Below, piece after piece: positions 5,267 through 8,755 of a DNA stretch of 64,000 nucleotides (its first letter is position 1; each line of letters starts with the position of its first letter). A model generated the notes under the pieces. That model saw only the letters and a list, made by a program, of their open reading frames with translations, searched no databases and was not told the DNA's origin. The DNA lies in assembly GCA_029233925.1 (NCBI GenBank), contig JARGOX010000004.1, positions 62,001 to 126,000 on the forward strand. The letters run 5' to 3'. Position numbers and translations under genes: made by a program. This DNA is from Rhizobiaceae bacterium (GTDB lineage: Bacteria > Pseudomonadota > Alphaproteobacteria > Rhizobiales > Rhizobiaceae).

Positions 5267-5545
5267 TGTAAAATTCAACATCCAGATGTAAAACACTCAG
5301 AAGGGCTCGGCGTTTTGCTTGCAATACGCCAAATGGTTCCGAATAGGTGTACCAATTCGAGGAAATGGGGCAATTATGGCCGGTTTGCCTCGTTCGTTTG
5401 GTCTGTGTGTCTTGACACAGAGGGTGCGGGGATAAAGAGTTAAACTCGCAATGGGGATAATAACTGGCGCAGCCGGAACTGAGAAACAGCCACATCATGG
5501 TCTGATGATGCAGGACGATCGGGACGCGTGAGAGGTGGAGATCAA
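5267..5545. other. Intergenic region upstream of the ABC-like gene
   Basis: About 280 bases with no credible gene. A TTGACA hexamer near 5411 resembles a -35 element, but no convincing -10 is correctly spaced, so no promoter is claimed. The last bases (AGAGGTGGAG at 5530-5539) form the ribosome-binding site for the TTG start of the next gene. Confidence 0.3.
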
Positions 5546-8260
5546 TTGGAGCGCAACCTTCTAAAATATATCTGGCGCCATTCGCGAAGTAAACAGATAT
5601 GGATATTCATAGTTGTACTGGCAGCCATGCCAGTCTACTTCCTGATGTTGCAGTTGCCCAAGCTCATCGTCAATGGTCCCATCCAGGCGGTTGGTTTCGA
5701 GACACCCGAGGCCACGCAACCCTTTCTTTCTATCTCGTTGCCTTTCACGCAATATTTTACCGATCAGCAGATCATGCTGTTCGACGGTTTCCAATTGCAA
5801 CGGCCATCCATGCTGGTGGTCTTGTGTATTTCCTTTCTGCTGGCCGTTGCCCTGAACGGCTGGTTCAAACTCTATATCAATACCTACAAGGGCAAACTCG
5901 GCGAAAGCCTGTTGCGCCGGTTGCGCTACGAGCTGTTTGATCGTGTGCTGCGCTATCCGATCGGCAAGATCCGTCAGGTCAAGCCGTCGGAGATTTCCAG
6001 CGTCATCAAGGATGAAGTCGAACCGCTGGGCGAATTTTTCGGAGATGCCTTTTCAGCGCCGGTCTTTCTGGGCGCCCAGGCGCTGACAGGCATGACGTTC
6101 CTGTTTCTGCAAAATACCATGTTCGGGGCTATCACGCTTGGGATCGTGGTGTTCCAGGCGTGGATCATTCCGCGCCTGAGGCGGCGTTTGCTGGAACTTG
6201 GACGTCGACGCCAGCGGGCAGCGCGCAGATTGTCCGGTAGAATTGGCGAATATGTCCAGGGCATGGACGACGTCCATCTGCATGGCGTCACCAATCGTGC
6301 CCGGGCGAACATCTGGAACATATTGCGCGGCATTCTCGCCACACGCTTCGAGCTCTATCAGCGCAAGTTCTTTGTCAAATTCATCAACAACTTCCTCATC
6401 CAGCTCCTGGCATTTATTTTCTACCTTCTTGGCGGTTATCTGGTGATTACCGGCCGGATGGATCTTGGTGCTTTGGTCGCATCGATTGCCGCCTACAAGG
6501 ATTTGCCCGCACCCATCAAGGGTATTATCGACTGGGATCAACAACGTTTGATGAACCAGATTCGCTATGAACAGGCGGTAGAGGATTTTGCAGAAACCGA
6601 AATCGTCCCCTATGAGCGGCAGGTGGCAACAGACCAGGTCCTGTCGAATATTCAAGATGGGTACAAACTGAGTAATATTACGGTGGTGGATTCGTCGGAC
6701 CAGCCAGTGATCGAGTCCTTCTCGGCTACCCTGTCGCGGCATGAAGCCGTGGCCATTGTTGGTGGCAATGATTCCGGTGCCGAACAGGTTGCTGAAGTTT
6801 TGGGCCGATTGCTTCATGCGCGGTCGGGCTCCATTACGCTGGACGGAAATGATCTGGACAACATAGCGGAATCGCAGACGGGCCAGCGCATCGGCTATGC
6901 CGACAGCAATGTATTCTATGCCGGCGGCAGTATAAAAGCCACTTTGGCCGAAACATTGCCATTTGTCGGGAATGCAGCACCGGTGATCAAGAATGCGAGT
7001 TCTGGTGCCGATTTCTCGAACTATGAAAACGATGCGATGGTGAGTGCCGATGTCGACATGATCTACGATGTCGATGATCCGGTTTCCAATCCCTCCTGGC
7101 CTGATGACGCCTTCTGGCCGCACCTGCTTTCGGTGATGCGGAGCACCAGACTGTATAATGATGTTCTTGAATTTGGTTTGCTACGCACGCTGGACAGTGA
7201 GGGTGATGAAACGATCAAAGCCAGTCTGCTGGAAGCACGGCGGGAGTTTGCCGACGACAAATCAATCGATGAACTCAGCGGTGCAGTGGAATTTTTTGAT
7301 CCGGAAAAATACAATCATCAACTGACAATCGGCGAGAACCTGATTTTCGGCACACCCCTTGATGCGCAATTCAACCCGGAAAACCTGCCGTCCAACAAGA
7401 CAATGCTTGGCGTGCTCAAGCAAACAGACCTGATGTCGCAGCTGTTTGATGCGGGACGTGAGGTGGCTGAAAACAATGTGGAACTGTTTGGTGATCTGAC
7501 CGAGGACAGCATGCTGCTGCAACGCACCGGCGGTCCCTCCCCCGAACAGATTGTGGCCATGAAACAGATGTTGGACCGCACATCCGGAAAGACGGTTACA
7601 ACCGCTCCGGCAAATGATGTCACCACCATACTGGCACTTGCATTTGGCTATAGCGAAACGCAGTCTCGTTTCGGTGTGCTGGACGAAGCGCTGCAGACAC
7701 AATTGCTCAATGCCCGCAAGAAACTTGCTGAAACACTGGGATCGCAAGGCAATGACTCTGTTGCATTCCTTGACCCTGCACGTTTCAATCCGTCATTGAC
7801 GATTATTGATAACATTCTGTTCGGACGCATCGATGCCAGGCGGACAGGCGCCCGCGACCGGGTTCTCAATGCGATCAAGAAAATCCTCGAAGAACGCAAT
7901 ATATCCGAGACCATTTTCCGCATTGGTCTTTCCTACGACATCGGTGTTGCCGGCAGGAACCTGACAACCAGCCAGGCACAGAAACTCAAAGTCGCCCGGG
8001 CGTTGTTGAAGAAACCGGATATGGTCATCCTCAACCGTGCCCTTTCGGCATTGGATCCAGTGGAACGCAAGGCCATCATTCATGATATCCTGTCTCTGGG
8101 AAGCAAAGACGGGAAACGTCAAATGGGTGTCATCTGCGTGCCTGTCGACCATGGTCCCTGGGATGATTTTGACCGCGTCATATTGATGGAAGGTGGCAGT
8201 ATTTCGATTGATGGTACACCTGAGCAAGTCGCTCCACGCCTTGAAATGAGTAATGCATAA
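5546..8260 (+). CDS. ABC-exporter-like protein with degenerate, insert-containing nucleotide-binding domain
   Basis: A TTG start at 5546 (AGGTGGAG 6 bases upstream) gives 904 residues and is preferred to the GTG at 5528. Residues 1-340 form an ABC exporter transmembrane domain with about six hydrophobic segments. From about 375 an ABC ATPase fold begins, but every catalytic motif is altered. Walker A is GGNDSGAEQ (about 406), without the P-loop lysine. The Q-loop glutamine is replaced (GYADSNVF). The signature is LTTSQAQKL (about 805). Walker B is VILNRALSAL (about 825), with Asn-Arg in place of Asp-Glu. About 260 residues are inserted between the Q-loop and the signature half, and carry an internal duplication (see findings). 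The fold and dimer interface may persist without ATP hydrolysis. The cyclic-nucleotide-binding gene follows 30 bases later, so the two probably work together. Substrate unknown. Confidence 0.8.
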   Translation: MERNLLKYIWRHSRSKQIWIFIVVLAAMPVYFLMLQLPKLIVNGPIQAVGFETPEATQPFLSISLPFTQYFTDQQIMLFDGFQLQRPSMLVVLCISFLLAVALNGWFKLYINTYKGKLGESLLRRLRYELFDRVLRYPIGKIRQVKPSEISSVIKDEVEPLGEFFGDAFSAPVFLGAQALTGMTFLFLQNTMFGAITLGIVVFQAWIIPRLRRRLLELGRRRQRAARRLSGRIGEYVQGMDDVHLHGVTNRARANIWNILRGILATRFELYQRKFFVKFINNFLIQLLAFIFYLLGGYLVITGRMDLGALVASIAAYKDLPAPIKGIIDWDQQRLMNQIRYEQAVEDFAETEIVPYERQVATDQVLSNIQDGYKLSNITVVDSSDQPVIESFSATLSRHEAVAIVGGNDSGAEQVAEVLGRLLHARSGSITLDGNDLDNIAESQTGQRIGYADSNVFYAGGSIKATLAETLPFVGNAAPVIKNASSGADFSNYENDAMVSADVDMIYDVDDPVSNPSWPDDAFWPHLLSVMRSTRLYNDVLEFGLLRTLDSEGDETIKASLLEARREFADDKSIDELSGAVEFFDPEKYNHQLTIGENLIFGTPLDAQFNPENLPSNKTMLGVLKQTDLMSQLFDAGREVAENNVELFGDLTEDSMLLQRTGGPSPEQIVAMKQMLDRTSGKTVTTAPANDVTTILALAFGYSETQSRFGVLDEALQTQLLNARKKLAETLGSQGNDSVAFLDPARFNPSLTIIDNILFGRIDARRTGARDRVLNAIKKILEERNISETIFRIGLSYDIGVAGRNLTTSQAQKLKVARALLKKPDMVILNRALSALDPVERKAIIHDILSLGSKDGKRQMGVICVPVDHGPWDDFDRVILMEGGSISIDGTPEQVAPRLEMSNA

Positions 8261-8290
8261 TGATGGAACCGGAGATACTGGAGGGTCTTG

Positions 8291-8755
8291 ATGAGTACAC
8301 TTAAAGATGATGTGGCCATGCTGCGCAGGGTCGCACTTTTTTCAAGTGTCGACCCGAGTAAACTCAAACTGATTGCCTATACTGCATCGCAGCGGGTGTT
8401 TGAAGACGGAGAGATGGTATTCGCAAAAGGTTCAAACGGGACCTCTGCCTATCTGATCGTCCGGGGTGAAGCCGAAATACTCGTTGAAAGCGGTGGCAAA
8501 CAGGTCGTTGTGGCGGTGCATGGAAGAAATGCGCTTTTCGGTGAAATTTCCGCTTTCTGCGACGTGCCACGGACGGCCGGCGTGCGCGCCCGTGGCCAAT
8601 TGTCAGTTCTGGAACTGAAGCGAGAAAACCTCATGGAACTCATCCACGAATTTCCCGAGGTTGCCGTTGAGGTGATACGCGAACTTGCCAGACGACTGGC
8701 ATCGACAACCAGTGATCTGGCCCATGTGCTGGACAGCAAAGAGACATCCGACTGA
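8291..8755 (+). CDS. Stand-alone cyclic nucleotide-binding domain protein
   Basis: A 154-residue single-domain protein of the Crp/cNMP-binding fold without a DNA-binding domain. The beta-roll runs from LFSSVDPSKLKLIAY to the phosphate-binding cassette region FGEISAFCDVPRTAGVRA, where the G-E and R positions of a cNMP cassette are present. The protein ends in a C-terminal helix (MELIHEFPEVAVEVIRELARRL). The ATG at 8291 is preceded by GGAGGG. Only 30 bases separate it from the degenerate ABC protein, so it may act as a ligand-sensing partner of that protein, which is inference. Transcriptional regulation is unlikely because no HTH is present. Confidence 0.85.
   Translation: MSTLKDDVAMLRRVALFSSVDPSKLKLIAYTASQRVFEDGEMVFAKGSNGTSAYLIVRGEAEILVESGGKQVVVAVHGRNALFGEISAFCDVPRTAGVRARGQLSVLELKRENLMELIHEFPEVAVEVIRELARRLASTTSDLAHVLDSKETSD

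Follow-up and report, generated by a model that had tools for sequence, protein, structure and literature searches.

A degenerate ABC exporter-fold protein and its cyclic nucleotide-binding partner in Alphaproteobacteria: a possible gated complex associated with glycosyltransferase clusters

Two described departures from the ordinary ATP-binding cassette (ABC) exporter bear on the gene pair considered here. Some exporters, among them CFTR (ABCC7), have one degenerate site and continue to function although catalytic residues are lost (PMC7756269). The other case is HetC of Nostoc. This ABC exporter of the peptidase type carries at its N-terminus a cyclic nucleotide (cNMP)-binding domain that is reported to bind ppGpp in vitro, and it needs its ATPase residue (PMC10986499). 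Here we analyze a stretch of 64,000 nucleotides (the window) from a Rhizobiaceae bacterium with a genome of 6.1 Mb (assembly GCA_029233925.1, contig JARGOX010000004.1, positions 62,001 to 126,000). It encodes a protein with the outline of an ABC exporter and eroded ATPase motifs, followed by a protein with a single cNMP-binding domain (Table 1).

We prefer, tentatively and at a little under an even chance, the view that the two proteins make up an exporter-fold complex that is gated by a cyclic nucleotide, does not hydrolyze ATP and serves an uncharacterized glycan pathway. The exporter-fold protein and the cNMP protein would associate in the membrane, and the cytoplasmic domain, enlarged by triplication of its arm, would be the platform for the cNMP partner. 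The arm normally couples the nucleotide-binding domain (NBD) to the membrane domain. Binding of a nucleotide by the partner would change the state of the complex, and the switched complex would control the passage, or the assembly, of what a glycan cluster produces. The pathway of that cluster would build, in the cytoplasm, a sugar chain that is perhaps borne on a lipid. The pseudo-exporter is the sole exporter-type component identified among the recurring neighbor families. Complex formation, ligand binding, gating, the substrate and independence from ATP are what we infer from the observations below. A narrower version, in which triplication of the coupling arm rebuilt the NBD from motor to gate throughout a bacterial class and the protein is an ATP-independent, cyclic nucleotide-gated flippase or channel for an uncharacterized alphaproteobacterial glycan, seems to us unlikely.

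Solved exporters match the exporter-fold protein, which carries the transmembrane domain (TMD) of type IV ABC exporters. A Pfam scan of it returned ABC_membrane and a split ABC_tran match (1.8e-10) only; no C39 peptidase domain was found. The initial annotation had proposed descent from an exporter, degenerate Walker A, Q-loop, signature and Walker B motifs, and pairing with a cNMP-binding protein. The function that it suggested, that of a ligand-gated scaffold, sensor or channel, stays conjectural. All the quoted motifs are present as written, the switch motif is degenerate as well, the ABC membrane domain has been retained, and the cNMP gene is intact, with an ATG start, GGAGG upstream and 30 bases separating it from the exporter stop. 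The Walker A consensus is GxxGxGK[S/T], the residue after the Lys being normally Ser or Thr. In the window, the signature LSGGQ has become LTTSQ and the Asp-Glu pair of Walker B reads Asn-Arg. Within the group of seven sequences to which the window belongs, the replacements A418, E419, N836 and R837 are invariant.

The degeneration holds for the whole family, as a survey of homologs made clear. We aligned 127 distinct sequences out of 170, that of the window included; a few are shortened (L063, for example), and L077 and L171, whose genes are broken, were excluded. None of the 127 retains all five ATPase features that were scored; four are retained in two sequences and three in five. The Walker A Lys position is occupied by Lys in 58, Arg in 37 and Ala in 19, and the following residue is acidic in 95 and Ser or Thr in 12 (thus missing from 115), so that Lys and Ser/Thr occur together in just five. 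At Walker B, the Asp position is Asn in 74, Asp in 22 and Ser in 18, 46 sequences have Glu at the catalytic position, and the two canonical residues coincide in four. Gly is found at the two GG positions of the signature in 15 and 12 sequences, respectively. On a quick tree made from the membrane-domain columns, these states require at least 19-29 changes, so the erosion continued in many lineages. The frequency of the acidic residue after the Lys, and of Asn in Walker B, suggests that an early ancestor of the family may already have been ATPase-impaired. The exporter-fold protein probably no longer hydrolyzes ATP and may act independently of it.

The cNMP partner was surveyed in 106 flanked loci (100 genome stretches and six plasmid records), which were drawn from the matches of the family search and are not independent; a few of them are on short contigs. 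The cNMP domain is encoded directly downstream in 86 loci, 615 nt away in one, and fused to the C-terminus of the exporter in 13; it was not found in six. The neighbor is general among homologs (100/106). Neither outcome that the initial annotation named as refuting it was observed, since no aligned homolog has intact motifs and the cNMP gene and the insert are present in relatives. Split, fused and absent states require five changes on the tree. Among the 100 domains, the residues of the phosphate-binding cassette are well represented: G and R in all 100, A in 91, E in 90 and T in 84. From the literature on CRP and PKA, these are the residues that hold the cyclic nucleotide. Fusions of exporter and cNMP domain are carried by named Ruegeria and Azospirillum plasmids, and the window genome has a fused paralog of its own; these argue that the exporter and the cNMP protein work together. 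No DNA-binding domain was found in the partner by Pfam, the sole other match, to DUF7453, being below the cut-off.

The insert that interrupts the NBD spans about 290 residues, roughly from residue 476 to 770. The initial annotation had recognized a duplicated block within it, and this repeat (R2 and R3 in Table 1) is real: local alignment in the window sequence gives a score of 95 vs. at most 53 in 500 shuffles. It had, however, overlooked a third copy, R1. In the window sequence alone, the R1-R3 score of 37 is equaled by 18 of 500 shuffles and the R1-R2 score of 23 by 394 of 500. Profiles give 106.2 for R2-R3, 43.4 for R1-R3 and 42.5 for R1-R2. Controls stay well below these values: over 40 column shuffles of R3, the highest score is 15.2 with R1 and 20.4 with R2, and over 40 column shuffles of R2 it is 18.3 with R1. 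A membrane-domain block gives 11.3 with R1 and 9.7 with R3. The alignment with solved exporters places the start of R1 at the canonical Q-loop strand and shows the sequence past the R3 core entering the signature. The profile scores and this alignment together indicate three copies of the segment from Q-loop to signature, of which a normal NBD has one. The insert, as read from these comparisons, is a triplicated helical-arm segment made of the canonical Q-loop copy and two more. The repeat positions align throughout the family, and N604 (R2) and N762 (R3) are invariant (127/127 each).

The connection to glycans comes from the neighboring genes. A GT4-like glycosyltransferase family is found near the exporter in 61 of the 106 loci and a GT28-like one in 55. 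A family containing a tandem Opp-type ATPase, which is a mixed cluster, occurs in at most 46, a weakly DUF2334-like protein (below cut-off; a second representative has no Pfam match) in 33, a histidine phosphatase in 32 and a small membrane protein (DUF6585, below cut-off) in 31. These recurrent families lie upstream and are mostly divergent. They were named from the genes of a single locus (L105), a complete row with four glycosyltransferases; other recurring families were recognized by eye. The row of Rhizobium johnstonii 3841 consists of an importer ATPase, a binding protein, two permeases, three glycosyltransferases, the exporter and the cNMP gene; the best match of the permeases is to Opp4 models, below cut-off. 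In the window genome, another contig (L215:9639-18817) carries four glycosyltransferases and, divergently, an Opp-type importer binding protein and two permeases, the permeases being 68-70% identical to the Sinorhizobium copies.

Across 289 genomes of the class, the exporter is found in 96 (E 1e-50, own genome counted) and the GT28-like gene in 93. Both are present in 90 genomes, the exporter only in six, the glycosyltransferase only in three and neither in 190; the expected overlap is 30.9 (Fisher p 3e-63). In 64 of the 90 genomes the two are linked within 6 kb, and in 26 they are unlinked. The co-occurrence of the family with a glycosyltransferase cluster is new here.

Several points weigh against the gated complex. 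The co-occurrence statistics ignore phylogeny, and the searches for exporter and glycosyltransferase differ in queries and cut-offs. Cellulose synthase, taken as a control, is present in 22 of the genomes and overlaps the exporter in 13 vs. 7.3 expected (p 0.0099), so part of the overlap reflects lineage or genome size; the control nevertheless falls far short of the near-identity seen for exporter and glycosyltransferase. The six genomes with the exporter and no glycosyltransferase, and the window itself, where the pair has no cluster genes alongside, do not follow the association. Since two of the cluster families have Pfam matches only below cut-off, the glycan connection depends mainly on the glycosyltransferases. 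The Walker A Lys, moreover, is retained in just under half of the aligned sequences, so nucleotide binding without hydrolysis is possible. Finally, structure prediction has low confidence, both for the full protein with seven sequences (mean predicted local distance difference test, pLDDT, 39.7) and for the insert, which is predicted to be mostly helical (pLDDT 52.0), and our structural statements therefore go no further than sequence homology.

Conservation is highest in the membrane part (residues 10-355), where the mean column identity is 0.61 and 62 of 346 columns reach at least 90% identity, vs. 3/114 and 8/130 columns in the NBD halves and 16/262 in the remaining part. The ratio of nonsynonymous to synonymous divergence (dN/dS) is 0.050, 0.131, 0.121 and 0.139 for the window exporter against four relatives, the synonymous divergence (dS) being near saturation (1.9-2.2) in three of the four, and 0.07 between two of the relatives. 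It is lowest in the membrane domain in four of the five pairs. The protein is thus maintained and not decaying, as its long open frame had led the initial annotation to say. Relatives that consist of the TMD only are also found: the window genome encodes one, 338 residues long (family-profile score 165), and three other genomes encode proteins of 399-413 residues (scores 310-318); ABC_membrane is slightly below the Pfam cut-off in both of those tested. Their existence means that the membrane domain can persist without any NBD. Taken with the conservation of the membrane part, it points to a membrane domain that may do work without ATP hydrolysis.

In the nearest rival, the pseudo-exporter transports nothing and serves as a scaffold or as an allosteric regulator, gathering glycosyltransferases at the membrane or relaying the cNMP level to them. 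An inactive ATPase site would suit a docking platform, as would three arm copies of mainly helical structure, and a cluster glycosyltransferase co-occurs with the exporter even when unlinked. The conservation of the membrane part, however, exceeds what a plain anchor would appear to need. We consider scaffolding possible, with a probability well short of even.

The protein may instead sense ATP together with the cyclic nucleotide, binding ATP without hydrolyzing it, in which case the Lys-retaining members would be nearest the ancestral state. The many sequences with Lys, and with Arg in its place, at Walker A speak for such a co-sensor. Against it, the window and all seven sequences of its group have Ala in place of the Lys, and most of the family lacks the Ser or Thr that usually follows. 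We judge the co-sensor improbable.

A degenerate protein could also be one half of a heterodimeric exporter, the other half being an active ABC half-transporter. A single degenerate site is common in exporters that are not homodimers (PMC7756269), and the window genome encodes other ABC proteins. By eye, no half-exporter adjoins the pair within the window, and in the 106 neighborhoods the family profile gives no second protein more than 118 bits, apart from pieces of two broken genes. For calibration, each of the 60 top-scoring solved ABC chains, most of them exporters, reaches at least 173 with a related profile (A1). The recurrent ABC gene that was inspected proved to be the Opp-type tandem ATPase. 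We regard the heterodimer as distinctly improbable, although its other half may be encoded elsewhere in the genome. That the protein is a functionless exporter in decay can be practically dismissed, since the lost motifs and the Sinorhizobium meliloti 1021 copy split in two (762 and 237 residues) are outweighed by purifying selection, full-length copies in many genomes and invariant repeat residues.

The gated complex keeps our preference, and the parts of the pair are located in Table 1. The start of the exporter is likelier to be TTG 5546 than the GTG that opens the frame (5528..8260, 910 amino acids), because the matches of most group relatives start at residue 4-7 and GGAG lies 5 nt upstream of the TTG. 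In five of the six other group members the alignment starts at residue 4-7, and in the 97% relative at residue 1.

Table 1. Features of the exporter-cNMP pair (window positions) and related genes elsewhere (locus positions).
Feature	Position	Strand	Remarks
Pseudo-ABC exporter gene	5546..8260	+	open frame begins GTG 5528; 904-910 residues
ABC exporter TMD (Pfam core, residues 93-320)	5804..6487	+	PF00664 1.6e-17
Degenerate Walker A GGNDSGAEQ (residues 412-420)	6761..6787	+	sequence, family statistics
Arm repeat R1 (residues 445-552), opens with canonical Q-loop segment, Gln lost	6860..7183	+	profile scores
Arm repeat R2 (residues 553-690)	7184..7597	+	core FFDPEKYNHQLTIGENLIFG at 7292-7351
Arm repeat R3 (residues 691-822), continues into signature	7598..7993	+	core FLDPARFNPSLTIIDNILFGRI at 7766-7831
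Degenerate signature motif LTTSQAQKL (residues 812-820)	7961..7987	+	
Degenerate Walker B VILNRALSAL (residues 833-842)	8024..8053	+	
Switch-histidine region (residues 870-876)	8135..8155	+	family-variable; canonical position by eye
Single-domain cNMP-binding protein	8291..8755	+	PF00027 1.8e-18; 154 residues
Phosphate-binding cassette FGEISAFCDVPRTA	8537..8578	+	in cNMP protein
Paralog with cNMP domain fused C-terminally, eroded motifs	L002:877-3933 (own genome, C26)		1018 residues
TMD-only relatives	L203:8001-9200; L204:7540-8781; L205:8531-9730; own genome, L206:8170-9186		

The close named relatives belong to Rhizobiaceae-group and other alphaproteobacterial metagenome-assembled genomes, Hoeflea poritis and a Nitratireductor strain, and the records of named relatives identify the class as Alphaproteobacteria. 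Exporter relatives are present in 30 of 61 related genomes (E 1e-40, own genome counted). Of 72,556 plasmid records, 262 contain relatives, most of these records being from Rhizobium and Sinorhizobium. In a sample of the phylum, 27 of 398 genomes match at E 1e-100, all of the same class, the share of other classes in the sample being unstated. The viral contigs and phages searched contained no relatives. A Candidatus Cloacimonadota locus led to genome G711; a search in the phylum of that genome gave 0/124 at E 1e-60 and, having had no known-match control, is uninformative.

The split S. meliloti 1021 copy lies on pSymB (L077:12001-14662); of the other records of that species, some match in two or more pieces and others in one. 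The locus tags here may be SMb20803-20816. PMC5539429 names smb20804 and smb20805 as affecting the capsule, from which no conclusion is drawn for this locus. By eye, the fused paralog of the window genome has an ACT-domain frame on one side and a glpX-like gene on the other. Of the TMD-only relatives, the one at L203 is surrounded by CopB, multicopper oxidase and cupredoxin genes according to Pfam, a copper-resistance island; the neighbors at L204 and L205 resemble these by eye, and the copy in the window genome is without them.

Two candidates were dropped. One was a Crp-type site, the palindrome TGTGTGTCTTGACACA (window 5404-5419), 124 bases ahead of the open frame; it is present in the window and the 97% relative and absent from the five other group members. 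The other was an anti-phage role: PADLOC matches concern the cNMP part of TIR effectors and a Pycsar cyclase, and the exporter has one weak match.

The annotated records that we inspected label the family as ABC transporter ATP-binding or transmembrane-domain proteins. In one plasmid record (L078:12004-15276), the degenerate protein is annotated ABC transporter ATP-binding and its partner, which lacks a helix-turn-helix domain, Crp/Fnr family transcriptional regulator. For the pair, both labels are misleading. If our reading is right, a third of the sampled class possesses an exporter-fold machine that lacks a functional motor, is accompanied in nearly every case by a nucleotide-sensing subunit and is tied to an uncharacterized glycan pathway present also in legume symbionts. 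The family, which ranges from members with the Lys through members that have lost it to TMD-only forms, would offer a natural series in which an ABC membrane domain can be studied without ATP hydrolysis, and cNMP control of a bacterial membrane machine would become testable.

Among the literature matches listed, where most subscription papers were beyond reach, no pair of degenerate ABC and cNMP proteins, and no such cluster, was described. The coupling of an exporter fold with a cNMP-type domain is already known from HetC; an ATPase-degenerate family with a triplicated arm was not found in the literature searched. With Crp/Fnr regulators, the partner shares the cNMP-binding fold and its phosphate-binding cassette, but it is only 154 residues long and no helix-turn-helix domain was found in it. 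Exporters of the CFTR type have one active site of two, whereas here no aligned member has the full motif set. HetC resembles the pair in coupling a cNMP-type domain to an ABC exporter, but it has a peptidase domain and a needed ATPase residue, neither of which was found here, and its cNMP domain is N-terminal rather than C-terminal or separate. Finally, type IV ABC exporters (MsbA, PCAT1, P-glycoprotein) have a related TMD and, by sequence, the same order of NBD motifs; the present family departs from them in its lost ATPase motifs, its triplicated arm and its separate or fused cNMP domain.

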